Part shown: positions 2,478-63,298 of the stretch, piece by piece
Layout of the letters: each line of letters opens with the position of its first letter
How positions within the stretch are numbered: the first letter of the stretch is position 1
Assembly: GCA_030650395.1 (NCBI GenBank)
Contig: JAUSDY010000117.1
Span: forward strand, 1-64,000
Source of the DNA: Acidobacteriota bacterium
GTDB taxonomy: Bacteria; Acidobacteriota; Vicinamibacteria; Vicinamibacterales; UBA2999
Length of the DNA stretch: 64,000 nucleotides
Direction: 5' to 3'
Program-made: the position numbers and the translations under genes
The notes under the pieces: model-generated
What the model was told of the DNA's origin: nothing
The model's database searches: none
Seen by the model: only the letters and a program-made list of their open reading frames with translations

Positions 2478-3460
2478 ACCGGCCGGAGGCCGGACGTGGA
2501 ATCGCGCGCCGAGGCGTAGAGCGCCGACAAGCTGGCCGCCGTGCCGCGGCTCTCGGCCAGGCTGACGACCGGCGGGGCGCCATCGAGCACGGATGCCTCG
2601 AAGTGCTCGACCTCGCGCACGAAGATCTCCGGCGAGCCCGTCACGTCGATGCGCTCCACTTGTCCCGCGCGCTCGAGCTCGAGCGTCTCGAGCGGCCCCG
2701 GCCGGAACGGATTCGGCACGGTCAGCGCGCCGTCGCTGCCGAGCACTTCCAGCCAGGTGCGGGACGCGGCGATGAACCCGGCGTAGATGGTGGCGGTCGC
2801 GCCGCCGGGAAAGCGCAGCAGGCCCATGAACTCTTCGTCGATGCCGCCGGCCGTCCAGTGCGCGGAGCCGAACACCATCTTCGGATCGCGATCCGCGATC
2901 AGCCGGGCATAGGTGACGGGGTAGCAGCCGATGTCCCACAGCGCGCCGCCGCCCAACGCGGGATCGAGCCGCACGTCGTTGTCGCCCGTGCGCGTGTAGG
3001 TGAATCCTGAAACGATCGCGCGCACGGCGCCCAGTGCGCCGCTGCGCACCAGCTCCAACACTCTGGCCGTGAGCGGTTCATGCCGGTACATGAACCCCTC
3101 CTCGACGCAAATCTTCGCGGCTCGCGCCGCCGTCGCGATCTGATCGACGTGCGCGGGGTCGAGGGCGAGCGGCTTTTCGCACAGCACGTGCTTGCCCGCG
3201 GCAATCGCCGCCAGCGTCCACTTCACGTGCTCGCTGTTGGGAAGGGGAATGTAGACGGCATCGATCGACGGGTTCTCGAGCAGTCGCTGGTAGCCCTCCA
3301 CGGCCTGCGGAATCTCCCACTCGCGCGCGAACGCCTCGGCACGCGCGCGATCCCGGCTCGCCACGGCCTCGAGGCTGCTGCGCCGCGCCGCACGGATCGC
3401 GGGGATCAGCCGGCGGTTGATCCGCGCCGTACCCAGAATGCCCCAACGGAGATTTGCCAT
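2468..3460 (-). CDS. Gfo/Idh/MocA family NAD(P)-dependent oxidoreductase
   Basis: 330 residues. The N-terminal Rossmann fold begins MANLRWGILGTARINRRLIP (GILGTA dinucleotide site). The family signature GKHVLCEKPLAL carries the conserved EKP lysine, and the C-terminal half has GGGALWDIGCYP, typical of sugar or inositol dehydrogenases. The substrate is not defined. The C-terminus (GLRPVSP) is encoded by a dispersed palindromic repeat, so the native end was probably altered by repeat insertion. A 9-bp-stem hairpin lies just upstream of the ATG. Confidence 0.9.
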   Translation of the reverse strand: MANLRWGILGTARINRRLIPAIRAARRSSLEAVASRDRARAEAFAREWEIPQAVEGYQRLLENPSIDAVYIPLPNSEHVKWTLAAIAAGKHVLCEKPLALDPAHVDQIATAARAAKICVEEGFMYRHEPLTARVLELVRSGALGAVRAIVSGFTYTRTGDNDVRLDPALGGGALWDIGCYPVTYARLIADRDPKMVFGSAHWTAGGIDEEFMGLLRFPGGATATIYAGFIAASRTWLEVLGSDGALTVPNPFRPGPLETLELERAGQVERIDVTGSPEIFVREVEHFEASVLDGAPPVVSLAESRGTAASLSALYASARDSTSGLRPVSP

Positions 3461-3468
3461 GTCGACCT

Positions 3469-3490
3469 GGACAAACCTGAAGGTTTGTCC
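3469..3490. repeat. Perfect hairpin, loop TTCA on the minus strand
   Basis: Arms GGACAAACC and GGTTTGTCC around TGAA. It sits 8 nt upstream of the oxidoreductase ATG on its coding strand. Two copies of the 12-mer CGTTGTACTCTA follow at 3494-3518. One of several hairpins in the window with unrelated stems but TTNA loops. Confidence 0.8.
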
Positions 3491-10030: not shown

Positions 10031-10113
10031 TTAAGTTGAAAGTTGAAAGTTGAAAGTTGAAAGTTGAAGTTTCAGTTTCTAGTTCAGTTTCAAGTTTGAG
10101 TTTTAAGTTACAA
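10031..10113. repeat. Period-7 array (GTTGAAA-type)
   Basis: About five near-perfect GTTGAAA units followed by drifting units (TTCAGTT, AAGTTTG). Reverse-complementary in type and in order of decay to the array at 2155-2213, so the two arrays flank about 8 kb in inverted orientation. No gene occupies 10018-10298. Confidence 0.85.
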
Positions 10114-19903: not shown

Positions 19904-20115
19904 TGCGCGGGCGTGACGCGGAGAGGTGTCTCCCGGCGTTCGCGACTCGTCTCGGCGGTCAAACCTTCACTCGGCACATTAAGCACTCCAGCTATGGACG
20001 CGCCAAAGACGGCAAGACGCCTGCGTAGCCTCCGTTCGATTTGACGACGGGATGCTTGTCGACGCCTCGCTCGACGCTCACGCCGGAAGACACCTCTCCG
20101 CGTCACGCCCGCGCA
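19904..20115. mobile_element. MITE-like element, copy A (212 bp)
   Basis: Terminal inverted repeats of about 36 bp with one mismatch: TGCGCGGGCGTGACGCGGAG at the left, its complement at the right, continuing AGGTGTCT[C/T]CCGGCGT. The inside contains CGCCAAAGACGGCAAGACGC. Copy B at 23031-23237 has the same ends and the same interior in the opposite orientation. It encodes no transposase; apparent frames across it (ending MDAPKTARRLRSLRSI) are repeat translations. Confidence 0.8.
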
Positions 20116-23030: not shown

Positions 23031-23267
23031 TGCGCGGGCGTGACGCGGAGAGGTGTCTCACGGCGTGAGCGTTCGAGCGAGCCGACACAAGTAACAAGGT
23101 CAAATAGAGCGAAGGCCACGCAGGCGTCTTGCCGTCTTTGGCGCGTCCATCGCTAGGGCGTTTAATGCGCCGAGCGAGATTTGACCGGCGAGCGAGAGCG
23201 AACGCCGGGAGATACCTCTCCGCGTGACGCCCGCCCATCGACAGGATGCGTGGCGGGGCCGGCTGCC
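23031..23267. mobile_element. MITE-like element, copy B, and right boundary repeat
   Basis: Element 23031-23237 (207 bp) has ends TGCGCGGGCGTGACGCGGAG and CTCCGCGTGACGCCCGCCCA with a few mismatches, and an interior CGTCTTGCCGTCTTTGGCGC that is the reverse complement of copy A. The 20-bp boundary at 23248-23267 (GCGTGGCGGGGCCGGCTGCC) is inverted relative to 19757-19776. There is no gene between 22955 and 23295. Confidence 0.8.
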
Positions 23268-24231: not shown

Positions 24232-24601
24232 CGTCCCGCCTGACGCAGACGGCGGTGACCGTTCCCGTGCAGATCGCTTCGCTGCCGCGAACAATCTCGT
24301 GGGCGTATTTGATGGTGCGCGCGCTCACCGCCTCGATGCGCACCAGCACCTCGAAATCGTCTTCGAAGTGGAGGGGCGTCTTGAAATCACAGGTGGCGGC
24401 GATGCGTGGCCAGCCAGGCGGATCAGCGGCTGAGCCTGCCACGCCGTACAGACCACTCGCCGGCGAGATGGTCATTCCGGCTGCGCGCCACAGTGCGTGC
24501 TCGGCCTCCTCCATGTAACGGAAGAAGTTCGAGAAATGCACCATGCCGGCCGCGTCGGTCTCCGCGAACTGGACCCGCCGCGAATAACGGAATGGCGTTA
24601 T
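24155..24601 (-). CDS. Acyl-CoA thioesterase (hot-dog, YbgC/4HBT-like)
   Basis: About 148 residues. FRYSRRVQFAETDAAGMVHF is the 4HBT signature with catalytic Asp, followed by SNFFRYMEEAEHALWRAAGM; ATCDFKTPLHFEDDFEVLVR and KYAHEIVRG complete the hot dog. Homology needs a start upstream of VQFAETD, but no ATG/GTG/TTG exists there. An ATA overlaps the TAA stop of the flavoprotein gene (ATAA), suggesting coupled start at a rare codon. Likely releases the product of the flavoprotein/radical SAM pathway next door. Confidence 0.75.
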   Translation of the reverse strand: MTPFRYSRRVQFAETDAAGMVHFSNFFRYMEEAEHALWRAAGMTISPASGLYGVAGSAADPPGWPRIAATCDFKTPLHFEDDFEVLVRIEAVSARTIKYAHEIVRGSEAICTGTVTAVCVRRDVNGAVKAVAVPPDVLQRLRAVLQAP

Positions 24602-25983
24602 GGCGTGCGCCCCTCGGGCAGCGTCAGCTCGTTGGCCTTGTGCTGCGCCGCTTCCGGCACCATGCCCTCGCGCCAGGTCGGCAGGCGCTGCTTGTCGTCG
24701 GGATACAACGATTCCATTGGCCCCCACACCTTGTCGACCTTGTCGGTGAAGAGGTCGCCGATCAGCAGATCGGTCACCGTGTTCCGCAGCTCCGGATAAT
24801 TGCGGACGAAGTTGCCGAAACTGAAGCCGTCGTAGTACTCGCACACCAATCGGCGCATGCGGTCGACGCCGTGATTGAACGTCTCACCCCAGGCGCCCAA
24901 CTGCGCCGCGCCGGTGTCGCCCCTGGCGAGCCCGTCGATAATCGCATCGGCCGCCAGCTCGCCCGACTTGAGCGCCAGCAGCACACCCGACGAGTAGAGC
25001 GGATCGAGAAACCCGAAGGCGTCGCCGACCAGCACCCACCCGTTGCCCGCGACTTGCGTCGAGCGATACGAGTAATCACGCGTCGCGAAATAGCCGGTGA
25101 CACGCTTGGCGTTCTTGACGCGTTCTTTCACCGCCGGCGTGTTCTCGACCTCTTCCTGATAGGTCTGCTCGTGATTGCCCTGGCGCCCCTTGAACAGGTA
25201 ATCAAATGGCGCCACCACGCCGAGGCTGACAATGTTGTCGTGGAGAGGGATGTTCCAGAACCAGCCGTCCTTGCCCGGCGTCTGGATGACCATGGTCGCG
25301 CCCCCGTTTTTGCCGGTGTCGCGGTAGGCGCCCTCCCAGTAGGTCCAGATCGCGCCCTTGTTCAAGACCGGATCCCACAACCGCAGCTTCATCCGGTTCA
25401 TCAGCAGCGCCGCCTGGCCGCTGGCATCGACCACGACCTTGGCGCGGATCTCTTTGCGGACGCCGTCCTGCTTGATGGCGACGCCGGTGGCCCTAATACC
25501 TTGACCGCGCCCCGCGCGGTCGGCTTCGCCGTCGCCGTCGCTACTACCTTGACCGCGCTCCGCGCGGTCGAAGAGGACCTCGATCACATGCACGCCGTCG
25601 TGGGCGTCGACGCCGTGCTCGCGGGCGTTGTCGAGCATCATCTGGTCGAATTCGCTGCGCACGACCTGCCAGGTCTGCGAGCACTCGTGCGGCTTGTTGT
25701 CCCAGAAATAAAACGGCGCCGACAGCTTGCCGTTGGCGTTGATGAACTGGACGCTGTACTTCTTGACGAAGTGGCTGCGCTGCATCTTCTCCAGCATGTT
25801 GAGCCGCTTCAGCACCCAATAGGTTTCGGGGATGAGCGACTCGCCGATGTGGAAGCGCGGGAACTTCTCGCGCTCGAACAGGCCGACGTTGAGCCCGCCT
25901 TGCGCGAGCAGCGTCGAGGTCGTGGATCCGGCGGGGCCACCGCCGATCACTACGACATCGTATTCAGACGAGATTAGTGACAT
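24598..25983 (-). CDS. FAD-dependent oxidoreductase, tryptophan-halogenase/GGR-like
   Basis: 461 residues. FAD site SEYDVVVIGGGPAGSTTSTL, FPRFHIGESLIPETYWVLKR typical of flavin halogenase-like reductases, and NGWVLVGDAFGFLDPLYSSG for the second FAD contact. No WxWxIP halogenase motif is evident (the nearest is DGWFWNIPLHDN), so halogenation is uncertain; a monooxygenase or reductase is equally likely. Residues around LFDRAERGQGSSDGDGEADR, AGRGQG come from a doubled palindrome inserted in frame. A period-7 array pair lies between it and the radical SAM gene. Confidence 0.8.
   Translation of the reverse strand: MSLISSEYDVVVIGGGPAGSTTSTLLAQGGLNVGLFEREKFPRFHIGESLIPETYWVLKRLNMLEKMQRSHFVKKYSVQFINANGKLSAPFYFWDNKPHECSQTWQVVRSEFDQMMLDNAREHGVDAHDGVHVIEVLFDRAERGQGSSDGDGEADRAGRGQGIRATGVAIKQDGVRKEIRAKVVVDASGQAALLMNRMKLRLWDPVLNKGAIWTYWEGAYRDTGKNGGATMVIQTPGKDGWFWNIPLHDNIVSLGVVAPFDYLFKGRQGNHEQTYQEEVENTPAVKERVKNAKRVTGYFATRDYSYRSTQVAGNGWVLVGDAFGFLDPLYSSGVLLALKSGELAADAIIDGLARGDTGAAQLGAWGETFNHGVDRMRRLVCEYYDGFSFGNFVRNYPELRNTVTDLLIGDLFTDKVDKVWGPMESLYPDDKQRLPTWREGMVPEAAQHKANELTLPEGRTP
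25498..25570. repeat. Doubled in-frame palindrome in the flavoprotein gene
   Basis: Two copies, 25498-25522 and 25546-25570, of ACCTTGACCGCGC[C/T]CCGCGCGGTCG; each is an 8-bp perfect hairpin (GACCGCGC/GCGCGGTC, 3-nt loop). They encode DRAERGQG and DRAGRGQG, in frame, in a surface loop of an otherwise intact enzyme. Confidence 0.85.
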
Positions 25984-25992
25984 AGACAACGT

Positions 25993-26110
25993 AGTTCAGA
26001 GTTCAGAGTTCAGAGTTATGAGTTAAGAACAGAATTCGTGCCCAATGAATATGTGTCTATATGCCCCGGTGTTATCGACTCTTAACTCTGCACTCTTAAC
26101 TCTGCACTCA
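25993..26110. repeat. Inverted pair of period-7 arrays (GTTCAGA / CTCTGCA)
   Basis: Left array 25993-26026 of GTTCAGA/GTTATGA units; about 50 nt of spacer; right array 26077-26110 of ACTCTTA/ACTCTGC units, complementary in type. It fills the gap between the flavoprotein start and the radical SAM stop, both on the minus strand. Confidence 0.85.
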
Positions 26111-27463
26111 CGTGTAGCGAATGTTGGAATGTTCGGGTAGGAAGAAACGCGGCAGCAGCACGTCGACGCGCATCAGCCCCTCACGCGTGAGGGCAATGCG
26201 GTCGGCGCTGCGCTCGGCGAGGTAGCCTTCGGCCGCCAGCGAGTCGAGGGCGTCCTTGAATCGCCCCAGCACGTCGACGCCGTACTTCTGCGCGAAATAC
26301 GGCGGTCGATTGGCGCCGCGCTTCAGCTGGAGCACGAACTCGCGGATCATCCGCTCTTCATCACTCGGACGATACCCGCGGCCGAGCGGGATCTCGCCGC
26401 GGTTGATCGCATCCTCGTAGTTCGGCCAGGTGTCGACGTTCTGGACGTGCACGCCGTTGATGTGGCCGAACGATGCGACGCCGAGGCCGAGCAGGTCCGC
26501 GCCCTCCCACAGGCGATCGCGATACACGAACTTGGCCGTCGAGGGATTCTTCACCGCGGTATAGGCGCTGCCGACGTGGTAGCCGGCGCGCTCGAGCGCG
26601 CTGAAGGCGTCCTGCACCCATCGCCGCTTGGTTGCCCAGCCGGCGACCGGCTCGTTGAACTGCCCGCCCTGCTTGTGCAGGTCGCCGCTGATCGTGGTGT
26701 TGTAGGGCAGCTCCATCTGGTAGATGGTGACGCTGTCGGGCTCGAGCGCGAGCGTGCGCTCGATGCACTGCTGCCAGTTGGCGTCGGTCTCGCCCAGCAT
26801 GCCGGCGATCAGGTCGATGTTGATCTGCGGAAACCCGAGCTTGCGGGCTTGCGCGTAGGCGCGGCCGATCTCGGGCGTGCGATGCGCGCGCCCGTTGATC
26901 TCGAGGATGCGATCGTCGAAGTTCTCGACGCCGAGGCTGAGGCGCGTCACGCCCATCTCGCGAATCGCCGCAAGCTTGGCTTCGCTCAACGTGCCCGGCT
27001 CGCACTCGAACGTGATCTCTTCGGCCTCGCTCCACGCGCCGCCGGCATTGAGCCGGCCCATCAGGCCCTGCAGCTGCCTGGTCGACAAGAACGACGGCGT
27101 GCCGCCGCCGAAGTAGACGAAGTTGAACTTGCGGCCGGCCACCGCGGGCTGCGACGCGTACAACTCCCATTCGCGCGCGACCAAGTCGAGGTAGTTCTCG
27201 ACCTCGCGCGCGTTCTTGTCGGTGTAGACCCGGAAGTAACAGAAGTGACAGCGCTTGCGGCAGAACGGGATGTGCAGGTACAAGCCGAGTGGCCGCCCTT
27301 CGACTCGCCCTCCCGGACCTTCGGTCCGCGAGGGCTCGCTCAGGGCAGCGTGGGCATCGTTGATCCCTTCAGGCTTCCACGCTGAAAACGGGGGGTAGTT
27401 GGCGACGAAATAACTGCCGACGTCCGTCTGTTCGACGGTGGCGTCTCCTTGCACACCAGACAT
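26108..27463 (-). CDS. Radical SAM protein, coproporphyrinogen III oxidase (HemN/HemW) family
   Basis: 451 residues. Cluster motif LYLHIPFCRKRCHFCYF (Cys68, Cys72, Cys75), VYFGGGTPSFL, ITFECEPGTLSEAKL and RLSLGVENFDDRIL are HemN/HemW hallmarks, and the C-terminal HemN domain is present. True heme function is doubtful because it lies with a flavoprotein and a thioesterase; a radical SAM step in a specialised lipid pathway is possible. Residues about 36-56 (AHAALSEPSRTEGPGGRVEG) are encoded by a palindromic repeat. TATAGT at 27477-27472 is 8 nt before the ATG. Confidence 0.85.
   Translation of the reverse strand: MSGVQGDATVEQTDVGSYFVANYPPFSAWKPEGINDAHAALSEPSRTEGPGGRVEGRPLGLYLHIPFCRKRCHFCYFRVYTDKNAREVENYLDLVAREWELYASQPAVAGRKFNFVYFGGGTPSFLSTRQLQGLMGRLNAGGAWSEAEEITFECEPGTLSEAKLAAIREMGVTRLSLGVENFDDRILEINGRAHRTPEIGRAYAQARKLGFPQINIDLIAGMLGETDANWQQCIERTLALEPDSVTIYQMELPYNTTISGDLHKQGGQFNEPVAGWATKRRWVQDAFSALERAGYHVGSAYTAVKNPSTAKFVYRDRLWEGADLLGLGVASFGHINGVHVQNVDTWPNYEDAINRGEIPLGRGYRPSDEERMIREFVLQLKRGANRPPYFAQKYGVDVLGRFKDALDSLAAEGYLAERSADRIALTREGLMRVDVLLPRFFLPEHSNIRYT
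27295..27348. repeat. In-frame palindromic repeat in the radical SAM gene
   Basis: Outer ends CCCTTCGACTCG and CGCTCAGGGCAG enclose a hairpin core (GCCCTCCCGGACC, loop TTC, GGTCCGCGAGGGC). It encodes part of AALSEPSRTEGPGGRVEG. Same outer ends as the repeat at 14391. Confidence 0.8.
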
Positions 27464-27526
27464 GTCTTCTCACTATACCGTCGGTAGGGCGCCATAGTTT
27501 ACTCGGCGCCCGTGACGAAGTTTGTG

Positions 27527-27633
27527 ACGGGAGGGCACTTCTTGACGGGAGAGCACCTCTTGACGGGATCGCAATCCGTGACGGGATGGCAATCCTTGAC
27601 GTGGACGGCACTTGTCGACGGCACTTCTTGTCT
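27527..27633. repeat. Array of 18-bp repeats, left copy
   Basis: Six units beginning GACGGG(A/T): GACGGGAGGGCACTTCTT, GACGGGAGAGCACCTCTT, GACGGGATCGCAATCCGT, GACGGGATGGCAATCCTT and two decayed units. It directly abuts the left inverted repeat of the IS5-like remnant; the inverted array is at 29520-29622. Confidence 0.9.
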
Positions 27634-27695
27634 TAAGAGCGTGTAACAAAACCTCCGAAGCCTGATCCTCGTCGGCGAGGTAGTGTGAACGGGGT

Positions 27696-28274
27696 ATGGC
27701 CGCCACGCTGCTTCCAGATGCGTCGTCGAATCTGGTCCAACCGTTCCTGCCGATTCCACTCTGTCGACCAAAAGGCGGACGGCCGCGCATCTCGGATCGC
27801 GCGTGCCTGACCGGCATCGTTTTCGTCCTTCGCAGCGGCATTCCGGCAGATGCTCCCGCCAGAACTCGGGCGCGGATCGGGGATCACGTGCTGGCGCCGC
27901 TGCACGACTGGCGGCCGGACTATGTGCTCGGGGATCGAGCTACGACGCGACGGCGATTCGGCGTGGACTGCGGGCGCCGCACCTCGTGCCGTGGCTCGCT
28001 ATGCGTCGCACCGCGCACGGGGAGTGGATTGCGCCGGTGGCGGTGGGTCGTGGAGCGGACGAATGCCTGGCTCAATCAGTTTCGTCGTCTGCGCGTGCGG
28101 TTTGACAAGCGGGCCGACATCCGCGAGGCATTCCTCTCACTGGAGCGCGTTGATTTGTGGGCAGTCGCTGCGCAAGACGTGGATAACGGCCTGAGCCGGT
28201 GCCCACTCGCGCCGAGGCGCTTCCCGCGGGCGGGACACGGAATCGGTAAACATTACGGCGTCAGTCGGGACTAA
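27696..28274 (+). pseudogene. IS5-family transposase, decayed
   Basis: The N-terminus is clear: CRPKGGRPRISDRACLTGIV, FVLRSGIP (DUF4096-type). Homology then shifts frame (ELGRGSGITCWRR at about 27857), shifts again (SSYDATAIRRGLRAPHLVPW at about 27940) and returns to the first frame for RWVVERTNAWLNQFRRLRVR and FDKRADIREAFLSL, with the DDE Glu. The segment with the first two catalytic Asp residues is largely deleted. Inactive. Confidence 0.85.
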
Positions 28275-29108
28275 TCATGGGTAACGCTCGTCCGACCTCT
28301 CGGCCGTTAGGTGCTGCCGCAAGAACCGCAGTGTCTGGCGAATGATGTCGCGCGATGTTCGGCTGTCGTCGAAGAGATCAAAGGCGTGCGGGCCTTCGGC
28401 ATGGTTCACGAAGGTAATCGGGAGATTCTCGATAAGTCCGTGACGGATGAAGCTGTCGATGGAGGCATTCATCGCCGGAAACTGGTCGCGTCCAGCCCTC
28501 GTTATGAGCAGCGGCACATCCCGTCGAAGATCCGCAAAGGTGCGGCCGACGCCTGGGTTTGCGAAGCCAAACTGCCGCGCCGCATTTGCCACGTCTGTCG
28601 CGCCATCGAGATCAAGCAGACATCCGCAGCCGAACACCGCACAGGCCGGCGTTCGGCTGGCGTCCTGCATGATGGTCGTGAGGGCTGTCGGGACATTCCC
28701 AGACACTGCGATGACCCCGACCCGTGCCGGATCGATCCGCAACGATCGAGCGCATTCGTGAATGTGCTCGAAGACGGCCTGAAGATCCGCGACGGGGTCA
28801 CGGTTCGTGTAAGCGATTGCCACCATGCCTGACAGCGCGATCAACTGGCACATCGAGACCGTCCACCCGATCTCCTTGTAGGTCAAGGTGGTCGGACGCG
28901 GTTCCATCGTCCCCGGGTAGCCTGCCACGATGATCACTGCGGGCCAGCGACTATCGTCCGTTTCGTCGGGCGGGTAGTAGACGTCCATGCAAAGACGACT
29001 CTCCGGCGGGCCGTACGCGACGTCGCGTCGCACGGTCATGGCGTCCATTCCGTCCAACTGCAGGCACACTCGACGTGTGAAGATGTCACCCGGCGGCGAT
29101 TGAGTCAT
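28275..29108 (-). CDS. Alpha/beta hydrolase (dienelactone-hydrolase-like)
   Basis: 277 residues. DVAYGPPESRLCMDVYYPPD, WPAVIIVAGYPGTM (oxyanion region), nucleophile elbow VGVIAVSGNVPTALTTIM (Ser in an S-G-N context rather than the usual GxSxG), RAGRDQFPAMNAS with the Asp, and NHAEGPHAFDLF with the catalytic His. Substrate unknown. It is enclosed with the transposase relic between inverted ends, so it may be cargo. Alternative start at MDAMTVRRD. Confidence 0.75.
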   Translation of the reverse strand: MTQSPPGDIFTRRVCLQLDGMDAMTVRRDVAYGPPESRLCMDVYYPPDETDDSRWPAVIIVAGYPGTMEPRPTTLTYKEIGWTVSMCQLIALSGMVAIAYTNRDPVADLQAVFEHIHECARSLRIDPARVGVIAVSGNVPTALTTIMQDASRTPACAVFGCGCLLDLDGATDVANAARQFGFANPGVGRTFADLRRDVPLLITRAGRDQFPAMNASIDSFIRHGLIENLPITFVNHAEGPHAFDLFDDSRTSRDIIRQTLRFLRQHLTAERSDERYP

Positions 29109-29635
29109 CGACCCTCCAAAAGCTGGCGGCGGTTTCGCGAACCGCCCTCAAGGTCGCCAGTGTGATTCCTCTTGTGGGCCTTGTGTCCAGTGGGGATAAT
29201 GAAATCTACTTGCCGGCAAGCCGACGGACCTGCCTGCCTTCCCCAGTCCCTTTAAGTTTCAGTCCCTCGGCTCGGCACAGTCTTGGCGCCGCTCGAGCCG
29301 TAGTCGGAACTGGGTTCCACTGTGCGCGAGATGCGATTAGTAACGAGCAGTCGCGAAGGGTTTGCCTATCTGCCCAGGTCGCGCATCGCGCCGTTCGGTC
29401 GGGGCCACCAGTTCGAGAAAATGGTCGCCTCGTGCCGACGAAGTGGCAGGGTGCTCGCCTGGCAAGCGCTCCGGTCGGGGTTTTGTTAGAGGCTCTAAGG
29501 GACTTTCTTGATGGGACAAAACCTCTAAGTGAGGTCCCGTCAAGAGGTGCAATCCCGTCAGGAAGTGCAATCCCGTCAGGCAGTGCCGTCCCGTCAGGAG
29601 GTGCCGTCCCGGCAAGAAGCAGGTAAAGTGGGCCG
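29109..29635. repeat. Gap holding the right IS end and the right 18-bp array
   Basis: No credible gene in 527 bp; an apparent frame here ends in PSRGAIPSGSAIPSGSAVPS, which is simply the repeat translated. 29475-29497 is the right inverted end. 29520-29622 is an array of 18-bp units such as AGAGGTGCAATCCCGTCA and GGAAGTGCAATCCCGTCA, the reverse complement of the 27527 units. TAAAGT at 29624-29629 lies 6 nt before the next ATG. Confidence 0.8.
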
Positions 29636-38135: not shown

Positions 38136-38216
38136 GAGTGCAGAGTGCAGAGTGAAAAACGAAGACACCGTTGCTTTGTTCTAAACTCTGAACTCTCAAC
38201 TCTGAACTCTGAACTC
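38113..38216. repeat. Inverted pair of period-7 arrays (AGTTAAG / ACTCTGA)
   Basis: Left array 38113-38152 (AGTTAAG, AGTGCAG units) begins inside the last codons of moaC; after 28 nt the complementary right array 38181-38216 (ACTCTGA, ACTCTCA units) ends at the ATG of the dehydrogenase gene. Confidence 0.88.
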
Positions 38217-39200
38217 ATGAAGGTCCTGATCTCCATCCAGCAACCCGTTAAGCAGTGGCAAATACCGGCTGAGGGTGTCGCCACGTTGCGGGCACGCTTT
38301 CCGCACATCGATTTCAGTCACGCCACCACCGACGAGACGCGCGCGCAAGGGCTGGCCGAGTGCGACATCGCCTACACCTGGATCCTCAACAAGGCCGAGC
38401 TCGATCGCGCGCCGAAGCTGCGCTGGGTCCACACCTCCGCCGTCGCGGTCGACACGCTCTGCCTGCAGGACCTGTTCGCGCGCGGCGTGGCGGTCAGCAA
38501 CACCCGCGGCGTGCAGGCGGTCCCGATCGCCGAGCACGTCATGGCGGTCGTGCTGGCGTTCGCCAAGCAACTGCCCGCGGTGCTCGACAACCAGCGCCGG
38601 GCCCACTGGGCACAGAACGAGTTCGTCGGCCTGCACCTGCCCTGGCTGCTGCGCGGCCGCACCCTCGGCCTGATCGGCGTCGGCACCATCGGCGCCGAGA
38701 TCGCCGCGCGCGCCAAGGCGTTTGGCATGCGAGTGGTGGCGGTGCGGCGTCGGACCGGGCACGACGCGATCAAGAACGTCGACGACACCTTCGGTCCGGA
38801 GCAACTGAGCGACATGCTCACGCAGTGCCACGTGCTGGTCGTGGCCGCCCCGTTGACGCCGTATACGTCGGGCATGCTCGGCGCCCGCGAGTTTCAGCAG
38901 CTCCCGCGCGGCGCGCTGGTCGTGAACGTCGGCCGCGCGAAGATCGTCGACACCGACGCGTTGATGGACGCGCTCCATTCGGGTCACCTCGGCGGCGCAT
39001 CGCTCGACGTGTTGCCACAGGAGCCGCTGCCGTCCGACCATCCGCTGTGGAACTGTCCGAATGTGATCTTGTCGCCCCACACGTCTGGTTTTCGCGAGGG
39101 CCACTGGGATGAGGTCGTCGCGCTCTTCGGCGAAAACCTCGAGCGCTTTGAAAGAGGCGAGGCGCTGCGGTTTCGCGTCGAGCCGGAGCTGGGGTACTAG
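38217..39200 (+). CDS. D-isomer specific 2-hydroxyacid dehydrogenase
   Basis: 327 residues. Nucleotide site LRGRTLGLIGVGTIGAEIAA; catalytic Arg in LVVNVGRAKIVDTDALMDAL; Glu in LDVLPQEPLPSDHPLW; His in NVILSPHTSG. The substrate 2-hydroxy/2-keto acid is not predictable. The start lies immediately after a repeat array with no ribosome binding site, so translation initiation here is unusual. Confidence 0.9.
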   Translation: MKVLISIQQPVKQWQIPAEGVATLRARFPHIDFSHATTDETRAQGLAECDIAYTWILNKAELDRAPKLRWVHTSAVAVDTLCLQDLFARGVAVSNTRGVQAVPIAEHVMAVVLAFAKQLPAVLDNQRRAHWAQNEFVGLHLPWLLRGRTLGLIGVGTIGAEIAARAKAFGMRVVAVRRRTGHDAIKNVDDTFGPEQLSDMLTQCHVLVVAAPLTPYTSGMLGAREFQQLPRGALVVNVGRAKIVDTDALMDALHSGHLGGASLDVLPQEPLPSDHPLWNCPNVILSPHTSGFREGHWDEVVALFGENLERFERGEALRFRVEPELGY

Positions 39201-51177: not shown

Positions 51178-52635
51178 GTGAAGTTACCGAAGTGGGCGAC
51201 CGCACTCGACGTGCTCGCGGTCGTCATGGCGATAATCGCCATCTCTGTGTTTGTCGCGGGCGGGTTCCGCCTGGTCTTCTTCGACATCCGGCTGTCGGTC
51301 ACCGATTGGTGGCGCCCCGCATTGTGGAGCGCGATCGCGCTGGTGATCCGGCACGCGATCATTCGCCGGCATCCCCTCCCGCAACGTGTCGCTCTCGCCA
51401 TCGCCAACTGGTGGCGCCATCCGGACACCAGAGTGGTGTTGCCGATCCATCTCGCGACGCGTGGCGGCGTGTTGGCCGTCGGCTTCCTGGCCGTCATCCT
51501 CGTTGGCTATCCAGCCAACAGCGGTGCACCGCCGTGGCGCGTCTATTCGAACGACTTCCTCGATCTGCCGGGGCGCTGGGACACCGGGTGGTACCTCGGT
51601 ATCGCCAACGAGGGTTATCAGTGGAATCCCACCCTCGGTCCGGAGGTCCAGCAGAACATCGCCTTCTTCCCGGCGTTCCCGATGACGATGCGCTACCTGT
51701 CTGCCGTCCTCGGCCATCAGCCGCTGTGGACGGGCGTCGGCATCTCGCTCGTCGCGTTTTTTCTTGGCCTCGTGTACTTCCTGCGCCTCGCGCGTGACGA
51801 GCTTGGCAACGAAGATAGTGCAGCGGCGGCCGTGGCGCTGCTGGCCGCGTACCCATTCGCGCTGTTCTTCAGCGCCGCCTACACCGAGGGATTGTTTTTC
51901 CTCACGCTCGTAGCAGCGGTGTCTCACTTCCGCAAGGATCAACTGTGGCGATCGGCGGCCTGGGGATTCGCCTGCGGCCTCACGCGTCCTAATGGCTGCT
52001 TCCTGTCGGTCGCGCTCGGGTTGATGGCGCTTGGCCCGGCGTGGGACGCGGCGCGGTGGCGCCCCATCCTCCACCCCACCACGCAAAGTCCGCGTGGCGG
52101 GGGCCCCAGTCTCCCGCCGGCGATCGGTTGGGGCCTGCTGTGGGCCCGGCTGGCGTCGGCATCGGCGCCAGGTCTCGGCATGATCGCCTTTTCGTTTTTC
52201 ATCTATCGGCTCACCGGCAACCCGTTGCAGTGGACGACGCAGAATGCGGCATGGGGCCGTGTCTATCGCGGACTCGATACGCTCGTCGCCGATCGCGTCG
52301 GCTTCATCGCCACCAACGGCCTCTATTCCTACGCGTCGACGCAGACGATCGACTTCTTCTACCTGCTCGCGGTGCTCTTTGCGCTCGGCGCGGTGTGGCC
52401 GGTGTACCGGCGCTTCGGCCTCCCGTATGCGGCCCTCATCCTCGTCAACGTGCTGCCACCGGTTTCGGTCGGCGGGTTGCTCTCGATGGGACGAGTGACG
52501 TCGGTCCTGTTCCCGGCGTTTCTCTGGATGGGCGCGGCCGTGCCCGCGCGGCACCGCGTGGCATGGGTCGCGTTCTTCGCGTGCCTCCAGGGATTTGTCG
52601 CCATCATGTTTTTTACGTGGCGGCCGATCTATTAG
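51178..52635 (+). CDS. PIG-V-like mannosyltransferase (membrane glycosyltransferase)
   Basis: 485 residues, about ten membrane segments. The key block is LDLPGRWDTGWYLGIANEGY, matching the WDxxxY luminal loop of PIG-V/GPI mannosyltransferase II-like GT-C enzymes; FFPAFPMTMRYLSAVLG and SAAYTEGLFFLTLVAAVSHF follow. Uses a lipid-linked sugar donor at the inner membrane. GTG 51178 lies 7 nt after TACAAT (51165-51170), which overlaps the alternative ATG 51169. An in-frame palindrome encodes HPTTQSPRGGGPSLPP in a loop. Confidence 0.85.
   Translation: MKLPKWATALDVLAVVMAIIAISVFVAGGFRLVFFDIRLSVTDWWRPALWSAIALVIRHAIIRRHPLPQRVALAIANWWRHPDTRVVLPIHLATRGGVLAVGFLAVILVGYPANSGAPPWRVYSNDFLDLPGRWDTGWYLGIANEGYQWNPTLGPEVQQNIAFFPAFPMTMRYLSAVLGHQPLWTGVGISLVAFFLGLVYFLRLARDELGNEDSAAAAVALLAAYPFALFFSAAYTEGLFFLTLVAAVSHFRKDQLWRSAAWGFACGLTRPNGCFLSVALGLMALGPAWDAARWRPILHPTTQSPRGGGPSLPPAIGWGLLWARLASASAPGLGMIAFSFFIYRLTGNPLQWTTQNAAWGRVYRGLDTLVADRVGFIATNGLYSYASTQTIDFFYLLAVLFALGAVWPVYRRFGLPYAALILVNVLPPVSVGGLLSMGRVTSVLFPAFLWMGAAVPARHRVAWVAFFACLQGFVAIMFFTWRPIY
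52069..52107. repeat. In-frame palindromic element, copy in the mannosyltransferase gene
   Basis: 39 bp with flanks CTCCACCCCA and GGCGGGGGCCCC and core CCACGCAAAGTCCGCGTGG. The reverse complement of 62822-62860 matches at 38 of 39 positions although the host genes are unrelated. Confidence 0.92.
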
Positions 52636-59788: not shown

Positions 59789-59808
59789 GGCACCCCTTTA
59801 GGGGTGCC
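59789..59808. promoter_or_regulatory. Perfect hairpin containing the ribosome binding site
   Basis: Arms GGCACCCC / GGGGTGCC around TTTA, ending 7 nt before ATG 59816. GGGGTG is the only Shine-Dalgarno-like sequence, so folding would hide it. Same arms as the hairpin at 9427. Confidence 0.6.
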
Positions 59809-59815
59809 GAACATT

Positions 59816-62800
59816 ATGAGCGAGCTGCGGACCATTCTCGCGGACGTGCGGCGGCGCTGGGCGCGCCGTGCGCTGCTGCGCGCGTGGATGCTCGGCGCCG
59901 CGACAGCTGCGGCGATGCTGCTTGTGGGATTCGCCGCCGTGTGGCTGGTGGCGCGTGACGGCGTGCCGCTGGTTCTCGCCGTTGTCGCCGTCTCGGCGGT
60001 CGCCGCGGTATCGCTGGTCTTCGCGCTGCTGCCCCTGCGCCACGCCCCCACCGACAAGCAGATCGCGCGCTTCATCGAAGAGCGCGCCGGCGGACTCGAT
60101 GATGTATTGGTCACGGTGGTAGACCAGGGCCTCGATGCCCGCGGGCCGATGGCGGACATCCTGGTGCACGATGCCACCCGGGCGACGCGACAGCTTGATT
60201 TAGACCGCGTCATCAGCCGCCAGACCTTGCTTCGTGCCGCGGCGGGCGCCGCGCTCGGCAGCGCGGCGTTGCTGGTGGCGATGGTGTTGTTTGCGCCGTC
60301 GGCGACACGCGCGGCCAACGTCGTCGGCTCGTACCTGTTTCCCAGGAGCTATACGATCGAGGTCACGCCCGGATCCGCCAAGGTCCGCACCGGATTTCCG
60401 CTTCAGATCGTGGCGCGCATTGCCGGCATCGACGGCGGATTGGTGCCGATGCTGACGGTTGGCACCGGAGCCGACGCCCGATCGGCGCGGATGTCGCCAG
60501 GCGATGCGCCGGGCGAATTCACGATCACCCTGAATAACGTCACGGTGTCGTTTCCCTATTCGGTCTCCGCCGGCTCGGCCCGATCGGCCGAGTACACCAT
60601 CGACGTGATCCGGCCGGTGCGCATTGCGCGCATCGACCTGGCATTCGAGTATCCCAGGGGCGTCGGCCTCGCTCCGCACACCGAAGAAGATTCGGGCGAC
60701 ATCTACGCGCCGGCCGGCACCAGGGTCACAGTGACGGTCACCACCGACAAACCGGTGACTCGTGCGCAGTTGACAATGGCCGATGGCACCGCGATGGCGA
60801 TGAGCGGCAGTCACCTTCGCCAAGGCGACGGTGCCCAGGCCGGCAAGGTCGTCACCGCCGACTTGCTCATCGCCAAAGACGGCTCGTACCGGGTCGCGCT
60901 GAACGATATCGACGGGCTGTCGAGCGAGGGAGACACCGAGTACTTCATCCGCATGTTGGACGATCGCCCTCCCGACGTACGCATTCTGCGGCCGGCGGGC
61001 GACAAGCAGGTCTCACCGCTCGAGGAAGTTGCGATCGAGGCACGCGCCGATGACGATTACGGTCTCGCGGCGCTCGAGCTCGTGTTCAAGACGTCGGCGG
61101 GTACACAAACCGTGGTACCGCTCGGCTCTCCGGTCAGCGGATCCATTGCCGCCGGCACGCACACCGTGTTTCTCGAAGACCTGAAAGTGAAGCCAGGCGA
61201 TTTCGTGACGTATCACGCGCGGGCGCGCGATCTCGGCCGCGGGCGGCGCGCGTCCGAGGCGCGCAGCGACATCTTCTTCCTGGAAGTGAAGCCGTACGAA
61301 GAAGAGTTCGTCGCGTCGGAAAGCCAGGCCGGCGGCGGTGGGGGACAGCAGTCGGCCGGCGTCGAAGAGCTGGCGGCGATGCAGAAAGACATCATCGCCG
61401 CGACCTGGAAGCTCGATGCGCGCGCACGACGCGCGAAGGATGCCCGCCCCGAACAGGACATCAAGGCGGTCGCGAAGGCGCAGAGCGCGCTGAAGTCGAA
61501 GACCGAAGAGCTTGCGGCGCAGATCGCGGGGCAGGCCTTCGCCGAGCGGCGCCGCCGCGGCGCGCAACCCGGCAGGCGGGCGGCCGCGACCACCGAGGAT
61601 CCGTTGCCGCGCGCGGTCGAGGCGATGGGCCGCGCCGCCGCCGAGCTCGATCGCCTGCAGACCGCAAAGTCGCTGCCGCACGAAGAAGAGGCTCTGGGCC
61701 AGTTGCTGAAGGCGGCGGCCGAGATCCGCCGCCGGCAAGTGCAACGGCAGCAGGCGCAGGGCGGCGGCGGTGGCAATGGCAATCGGCAGCAGCCCGACCT
61801 GTCGACGCTGTTCGACCAGGAGCTGCGCAAGAAACAACAGACCAACTACGAGACGCCGCCGACGACTGAAACCAGGAACGACCAGCCGCAAGACGACGAT
61901 CCGCTGTCTAGCATCCGCGAGCTGGCACGCCGTCAGGAAGCGCTGTCGCGCCAGCAGAAAGAGCTGGCCAAGAACAAGGAACAGCTCGCCGAGGAAGAGC
62001 TCCAGCGCCAGCTCGAGCGGCTGACGCGCGATCAGGAAGAGCTCAGGAAGCAGGCGGAACAACTCGCGCAGCAGCAAAACGAACAAGGGTCGTCGTCCGA
62101 GGGCCGCAAGATGCGCGAGATCGCCGACGAGATGCGCAATGCGGCGAAGGAGCTGGGCCGGCAGGACCCGCAACAGGCCGGCGTACGCGGTGACCGCGCG
62201 ACACAGCAACTACGCAGCCTCGAACAGCAGATGCAGGGCGCCAGTCCCGACGAGCGCCGCCGGGCCCTCGGCGATCTGCAGCTCGAAGCGCGTCAGCTGG
62301 CCGATGCCGAACGCCGCCTGGGTAACGAATCGGCGAAAACTGCAGAGGGCGCCGCCGGCGAAGACGCACGCCGCCGGCTCGCCGCAGAACAGCAACGCCT
62401 TGCCGATCGAACCGATCGATTGAGCGAGACGATGAAACAGCTCGCCAAGGGCCCCGCTGAAGGCGAGCCGCAAAATCCCTTCGACTCCGCTCAGGGCAGG
62501 CGCCAGGCGATGACCGACGCGTCGCGCGAGCTGGAGCGGCAACGCTTGAGCGAGCGGATGCGCGAGTCGGCGAAAGCCATGCGGCAGGGCGCGAAAGCAG
62601 ATCCACAGGGGCAGGCCAGACCCGAAGACCTCGCCCGTGGCCTCGATACGGTCGCCGAACGATTGGGCGCCGCAACCGGCGGCCGCGACGGCGAAACCGC
62701 GCGGCTCTCCGATCAGCTCGGCAAGACCCAGGAGCTGCGGGATCGGCTGAGCGAGCTGCAGAAGACGATGGACGCGTTGTCGAAGGCGGGTGATACGCCG

Positions 62801-63298
62801 CAGCCCGGTCAGGAAGGGCCCGGGGCCCCCGCCACGCGGACTTTGCGTGATGGGGTGGAGAAGCAGCCCGGCGCGGAGGGCCGCGACGGACCAGCGGGTC
62901 AGCAGGGGACGTCCGAAGGCGGCCGTGCCGGCGCGGTCCAGCGCCTGCAACGAGAGGCCGACGAAAAAATGCGCGAGGCCCAGCGGCTCGCCGACGAAGT
63001 GCAGAAGCAAAATCCCGGAATGCAGAAGGGCGGCTCGACGCCGGAGCAATGGCAGCGCAGCACCTCGGCGCCAGGGACAGAAAGCTTCAAGCAGGACTTC
63101 GCCAAATGGGAGTCGCTCAAGAAGAATTTGCTGGCGGCACTCGAGCAGACCGAATCGCAGTTATCGGATCAGCTGCGCGCCCGCGAGAACAAGGAGCGCT
63201 TGAACGCCGGCCGTCACGACGCGGTCGCCGACACCTATCGCGAGCTCGTCGACCGTTATTACCAGTCCCTCGCCGCACCGCGGAGACAGCCGCGGTAA
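59816..63298 (+). CDS. DUF4175 family membrane protein
   Basis: 1160 residues. Three N-terminal membrane helices (LLVGFAAVWLVARDGVPLVL, AVVAVSAVAAVSLVFALLPL; AAAGAALGSAALLVAMVLFA), several Ig-like beta domains to about 510, then a long Gln/Glu/Arg-rich coiled coil (QEALSRQQKELAKNKEQLAE, RQLERLTRDQEELRKQAEQL). Typical DUF4175 of Bat-type operons. In-frame repeats encode NPFDSAQGRRQA (about 62476) and GPGAPATRTLRDGVEK (62822). ATG 59816 preferred over GTG 59804 inside the hairpin. Confidence 0.85.
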   Translation: MSELRTILADVRRRWARRALLRAWMLGAATAAAMLLVGFAAVWLVARDGVPLVLAVVAVSAVAAVSLVFALLPLRHAPTDKQIARFIEERAGGLDDVLVTVVDQGLDARGPMADILVHDATRATRQLDLDRVISRQTLLRAAAGAALGSAALLVAMVLFAPSATRAANVVGSYLFPRSYTIEVTPGSAKVRTGFPLQIVARIAGIDGGLVPMLTVGTGADARSARMSPGDAPGEFTITLNNVTVSFPYSVSAGSARSAEYTIDVIRPVRIARIDLAFEYPRGVGLAPHTEEDSGDIYAPAGTRVTVTVTTDKPVTRAQLTMADGTAMAMSGSHLRQGDGAQAGKVVTADLLIAKDGSYRVALNDIDGLSSEGDTEYFIRMLDDRPPDVRILRPAGDKQVSPLEEVAIEARADDDYGLAALELVFKTSAGTQTVVPLGSPVSGSIAAGTHTVFLEDLKVKPGDFVTYHARARDLGRGRRASEARSDIFFLEVKPYEEEFVASESQAGGGGGQQSAGVEELAAMQKDIIAATWKLDARARRAKDARPEQDIKAVAKAQSALKSKTEELAAQIAGQAFAERRRRGAQPGRRAAATTEDPLPRAVEAMGRAAAELDRLQTAKSLPHEEEALGQLLKAAAEIRRRQVQRQQAQGGGGGNGNRQQPDLSTLFDQELRKKQQTNYETPPTTETRNDQPQDDDPLSSIRELARRQEALSRQQKELAKNKEQLAEEELQRQLERLTRDQEELRKQAEQLAQQQNEQGSSSEGRKMREIADEMRNAAKELGRQDPQQAGVRGDRATQQLRSLEQQMQGASPDERRRALGDLQLEARQLADAERRLGNESAKTAEGAAGEDARRRLAAEQQRLADRTDRLSETMKQLAKGPAEGEPQNPFDSAQGRRQAMTDASRELERQRLSERMRESAKAMRQGAKADPQGQARPEDLARGLDTVAERLGAATGGRDGETARLSDQLGKTQELRDRLSELQKTMDALSKAGDTPQPGQEGPGAPATRTLRDGVEKQPGAEGRDGPAGQQGTSEGGRAGAVQRLQREADEKMREAQRLADEVQKQNPGMQKGGSTPEQWQRSTSAPGTESFKQDFAKWESLKKNLLAALEQTESQLSDQLRARENKERLNAGRHDAVADTYRELVDRYYQSLAAPRRQPR
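62822..62860. repeat. In-frame palindromic element, copy in the DUF4175 gene
   Basis: 39 bp, reverse complement of 52069-52107 with one mismatch. It encodes GAPATRTLRDGVE in a low-complexity linker. Confidence 0.92.

Follow-up and report, generated by a model that had tools for sequence, protein, structure and literature searches.

We estimate, with a probability of about 0.75, that a permissive turn of a halogenase-like flavoenzyme has recently gained hairpin-forming DNA, with the frame kept, and carries it as tolerated, probably neutral, sequence; the gain is lineage-specific, the segment being absent from close relatives. The DNA concerned is a doublet of two near-identical copies. It lies in the window, by which we mean the whole 64-kb stretch of DNA that was analyzed, and belongs to a 5.4 Mb draft genome of 180 contigs.

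The doublet and its hairpins

The gene and the parts of the doublet are located as follows, in coordinates of the + strand:

24598-25989, - strand: flavin-dependent halogenase-like protein with the doublet, 463 aa (assigned from the ORF, Pfam and structure matches)
25541-25570, - strand: repeat copy 1, first in coding order, with its stem at 25551-25569
25493-25522, - strand: repeat copy 2, with its stem at 25503-25521
25495-25566, - strand: residues 142-165, RAERGQGSSDGDGEADRAGRGQGI, encoded by 24 codons as against 2 in relatives (from the alignments of 24 and of 94 sequences)

The two copies are identical at 28 of 30 positions, differ at the other 2, start 48 bp apart, and each has a loop of 3 nt closed by a perfect 8-bp stem. 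The original prediction had the 48-bp spacing and the perfect 8-bp hairpins right; its two near-identical copies are there as well, at about 30 bp each rather than 25. The roughly 25 added residues that it proposed become 24 against 2 in relatives, a net gain of 22 residues (66 bp), and the extra segment does lie between strands of the FAD enzyme, with the frame kept and free of stops.

The doublet is not a chance product, since no second pair in the window reaches 23/24 identity when spaced 24-100 bp apart and since 0 of 100 shuffles gave two or more matches to the pattern. Perfect 8-bp hairpins by themselves are ordinary in the GC-rich window, numbering 32 (some of them nested) vs 16 ± 5 in 20 shuffles; lone hairpins are frequent there, whereas a near-identical local doublet is not.

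The host enzyme

By profile, sequence and fold, the host protein is a member of the flavin-dependent halogenase group with a putative halogenating activity. A profile search assigns it the Pfam family Trp_halogenase at 8e-26, sequence comparison gives FasV, Mpy16 and PltA as its matches of solved structure, and a fold search with the predicted model returned the halogenases FasV, Bmp2, PltA, Mpy16 and CndH, whose fold is like that of the host enzyme; among the matches listed, no NCBIfam equivalog cut-off was reached. The protein has both the fold of known halogenases and the residues W243, W245, I247 and P248, which we take to be the WxWxIP motif of flavin-dependent halogenases. These four and the residues of the FAD fold are invariant in the 46-sequence alignment, which suggests an intact enzyme. 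When plasmids were searched with the protein, only homologues below 60% identity were returned.

Place of the segment in the protein and its absence from relatives

The input for AlphaFold2 was this alignment of 46 sequences, the query together with 45 of 80 genome_contigs loci hand-picked for spread and whole-codon length, and the resulting model has a mean pLDDT of 84.3 and a pTM of 0.88. Its sole stretch of at least three residues with pLDDT below 50 is residues 144-162, at the tip of a beta-hairpin between strands 134-142 and 165-174; the extra residues are thus placed in the turn between two beta strands and predicted to be disordered. In a residue-by-residue alignment, FasV has no such insert; its turn there is short (LFDGDRMVGV).

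A search of 99 genomes gave a match at E <= 1e-40 in 25, the own genome included, and the first alignment contained the query and 24 sequences, one per match kept and two from G046. In most of the 24 the turn reads VLF[DE]-GD-RA or similar, vs VLFD, 24 residues and RATGV in the query. Addition of genome_contigs relatives (80 of 121 loci kept) brought the alignment to 105 sequences, 94 of them distinct. The turn segment is 18-19 residues long in 87 of the 94 relatives, 25-35 in the other 7 and 40 in the query, and the congeners G001, G004 and G007, at 85-93% identity over the matched stretches, are without the doublet. The alignment that the original prediction proposed as a check therefore gives zero copies in the 94 distinct relatives, two in this genome and one in none. 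Conservation of the segment as a structured part of the fold, named beforehand as the observation that would speak against an insertion, is not what the homologues display: 0 of 94 carry the doublet and the model is disordered there. Alignment and predicted structure together argue that the segment is a recent tolerated insertion rather than conserved structure. The broader proposal, that repeats expand within coding sequence while the frame is kept, holds as regards the frame; as regards expansion it is not borne out by two copies here, zero elsewhere and a one-copy state that was not found.

Searches for further copies

At up to 3 mismatches, the doublet core occurs in its own genome at this locus only, in its 2 copies, and in none of 42 other genomes of the family; the exact pattern has no match in genome_contigs, a collection that may omit records close to the window's genome. 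The stem alone, with 1 mismatch, is found 4 times vs 5 for the control in the own genome and 7 times vs 2 in G004. A loose pattern gave 181 + 182 matches at up to 3 mismatches vs 94 + 94 for the reversed control; without mismatch it recovered only the two copies here and C11:42313, the last of which has an unrelated context. When 80 bp of DNA was searched against 43 genomes, only short, weak matches appeared outside the locus, the best at E 1.5e-4 in G009 (27 bp at 93%) and, elsewhere in the own genome, at E 0.008. A shortened pattern had ten hits in viral_contigs, and the 8-bp stem is completed in 0 of 10. Six strings of repeat sequence were found in no paper among open-licence PMC texts. We discarded the idea of a dispersed family, since the pattern and 80-bp searches and those of genome_contigs and viral_contigs show no spread copies; and since the doublet is not dispersed, this locus alone is no demonstration that repeats spread through coding DNA.

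A dispersed 24-bp repeat of the same genome

The same genome contains a 24-bp repeat, CCTTCGACTNCGCTCAGGGCAGGC, for which we know of no published name, in 25 copies at up to 2 mismatches vs 1 for the control. An open frame of at least 90 aa on some strand covers 24 of the 25; where DNA is rich in GC, such frames are weak evidence for coding. Two of the 25 were compared with relatives and both are 8-codon in-frame insertions; genes of this genome do, then, take up repeats without loss of frame. One of the two is in the window, in ORF 59804-63298 and separate from the doublet:

62478-62501, + strand: CCTTCGACTNCGCTCAGGGCAGGC repeat copy, in-frame PFDSAQGR

At this place G001 has PLDVAQGR, 6 other congeners aligned lack the insertion, and G006 gave no match; an insertion of the PFDSAQGR type is common to two species, that of the own genome and G001. 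The other copy adds PSTALRAG in frame in L211 (G000:C71, ~1484-1507), presumably, from a reading of its sequence, a valyl-tRNA synthetase-like gene. PSTALRAG is absent from 11 other sequences aligned (G045, a distant match only, was left out of the alignment), and the place is a variable one, G003 having filler of another kind there. It is this separate repeat, and not the doublet locus alone, that demonstrates the spread of repeats through coding DNA.

Kinship between the doublet and the 24-bp repeat was rejected, since their similarity does not rise above that of shuffles despite a common 24-bp rhythm (48 = 2 x 24): against CCTTCGACTCCGCTCAGGGCAGGC of the 24-bp repeat, the fraction of shuffles scoring as well was 0.47, 0.72 and 0.11 when the three units of 24 bp were taken singly and 0.30 when all 72 bp were taken together. 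The repeat CCTTCGACTNCGCTCAGGGCAGGC resembles the doublet in standing in frame at variable places of proteins, with two units in the same turn of the L107 orthologue described below, and differs from it in sequence and in having 25 copies vs 2.

Insertions at the same turn in other lineages

Insertions of at least 6 residues were counted between core columns in the alignment of the 94 relatives and the query. There are nine, eight of them at the doublet-bearing turn (query, L005, L006, L009, L102, L107, L165 and L171); the aligner split these eight among three adjacent gap positions, which we counted as one turn. The ninth is in L107 near query residue 236 and comprises 10 residues (ARTGGQGPPD); its DNA is GC-rich and includes a short inverted repeat. 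At the turn itself, L107 (Acidobacteria bacterium 13_1_40CM_65_14) has a CTTCGACTCCGCTCAGSGC repeat in two tandem units of 24 bp, a repeat that occurs 12 times in its genome vs 0 for the reversed control, and L102 (Planctomycetota bacterium) has a hairpin-forming sequence beginning CCCTCACCCC, the core pattern of which is found 145 times in that genome vs 33 for the reversed control. The turn inserts of the query, L107 and L102 are mutually unrelated in sequence; the repeat nature of the insert is established for L107 and L102, not for L005, L006, L009, L165 and L171. On the evidence of these alignments, the turn seems to take up inserts repeatedly, in several lineages.

Other repeats in the window

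The window contains further repeats at other places. Units of 18 bp (TGACGGGAGGGCACTTCT and the inverse type) form two arrays, at 27525-27621 and 29535-29619, which lie about 2 kb apart in opposite orientation and flank the ORFs 27696-28274 and 28275-29108. A repeat of about 40 bp is present in four copies, direct and inverted and 93-95% alike (19904-19944, 20075-20115, 23031-23072 and 23198-23237), and the two members of a 39-bp inverted pair at 97% lie 10.7 kb apart (52069-52107 and 62822-62860). Arrays of 7-bp units, of AACTTTC/AAGTTGA and AGTTCAG/TCTGAAC types, are found at 2182-2214, 10033-10068, 25993-26028 and 38180-38221, the third of them just upstream of the halogenase-like gene. The window also has the palindrome GGACAAACCTNAAGGTTTGTCC, at 3469-3490. 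Two more occurrences, in L245 at 3062-3083 and 3115-3136, lie downstream of the single Y1 transposase gene of the genome, so the palindrome may represent a REP-like family.

Origin of the doublet and alternative explanations

For the source of the doublet DNA we put a local origin at even odds, a view taken because the sequence was found nowhere else. The DNA may have arisen in place, perhaps by template switching at a hairpin: in G001, the closest relative, the Asp-Arg-Ala codons of the turn are GACCGCGC, which is one stem arm, so a switch of this kind could have made the other arm from a native one. The segment would then have been doubled as a 48-bp unit, and selection would have left only the in-frame, stop-free outcome. 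Against a local origin, the tail AAGGTANTAG is not explained and, on inspection of the sequence, the 19-bp spacer has no clear source in the flanks; against stepwise growth, the relatives supplied no one-copy intermediate. As the main rival source, a REP-like element of very low copy number, or one since lost, may have inserted here, which is conceivable though somewhat doubtful, and the small remaining probability falls to a source of neither kind.

A mobile family of REP-like palindromes might have placed two members in or close to the one turn, its other copies being lost or in unsampled genomes; this we consider unlikely. Their identity at 28/30 bp within differing flanks would suit such a family, and so would the dispersed repeats in the same turn of L107 and L102, the in-frame entry of the 24-bp repeat into genes of the own genome, and the double REP insertions within one gene described in PMC3733652. 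Against it, the 5.4 Mb genome yields only these two copies when up to 3 mismatches are allowed, with none in the 42 other family genomes and no exact match in genome_contigs, although the draft may hold a further, unassembled copy; the doublet's likeness to the 24-bp repeat is no better than chance, and the genome's single Y1_Tnp gene is without this hairpin at its flanks, for which reason an origin by RAYT was also rejected. A functional loop, serving as a substrate lid, a partner-binding loop or an RNA hairpin that regulates translation, is improbable: an open frame without stops and the stability of the lone RNA hairpins (-15.6 kcal/mol for a single 26-nt copy, z -3.6 to -3.7) speak for one, but a 91-nt piece folds with z -2.1 on the coding strand vs -3.35 on the opposite strand, Rfam has no match up to E 1 across 24500-28500, and both the absence from all 94 relatives and the disordered model count against it. 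Least probable is an artefact of assembly or sequencing, since a kept frame without a stop, two differences between the copies and a site well inside a 71-kb contig weigh more with us than the 180-contig draft and the restriction of the sequence to this one genome. We thus favor the reading of a recently gained, tolerated insertion.

Comparison with known systems

In REPs of the GTAG type, GTAG or a variant of it marks one end of the repeat and stands before the stem. In the doublet, by contrast, the stem is followed in coding sense by GGTAGTAG in copy 1 and by GGTATTAG in copy 2, and GTAG precedes it on neither strand. CGTC-type REPs, as portrayed in PMC3733652, have a CGTC end, an 8-9-bp stem beginning with A/T pairs, a 4-5-nt loop and a CCA-like tail, whereas the doublet stem begins with a G-C pair, its loop is 3 nt, and no CGTC tag is in the place there described. 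The 8-bp stem, with its 3-nt loop, is within the range of 5-13 bp given for REP stem-loops in the same paper, but REPs have many copies across a genome and the doublet has two at one locus. Intragenic GTAG/CGTC REPs are likewise short in-frame hairpins, often double, most of the inserts having 20 to 30 residues, and different REPs are found at about the same recB site in two species (PMC3733652). Rickettsia palindromic elements are palindromic DNA that stands in frame within the genes for conserved proteins and seems to be tolerated there; they are 105-146 bp long and have many places in the genome (PMC2229807). The doublet shares with them the in-frame palindrome in a conserved protein gene, and differs in its size of about 30 bp and its two copies in a single gene. 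In-frame palindromic insertion is already known in other bacteria (PMC3733652 and PMC2229807), and the doublet adds a case.

The added case is from an uncultivated bacterium, whose congener G001 is recorded under Acidobacteria. Tentatively, unrelated repeats, whether palindromic or dispersed, may land at this turn again and again in different bacteria (query, L107 and L102); with 8-codon units entering other genes in frame, short repeats might then mark insertion-tolerant turns and keep supplying new loop sequence. Because 24 bp is a multiple of three, copies of the 24-bp repeat could be counted to ask how frequently repeat DNA is turned into protein. The interest of the doublet itself is modest and lies in the repeated use of the turn: one exposed turn seems to collect unrelated inserts in several lineages.
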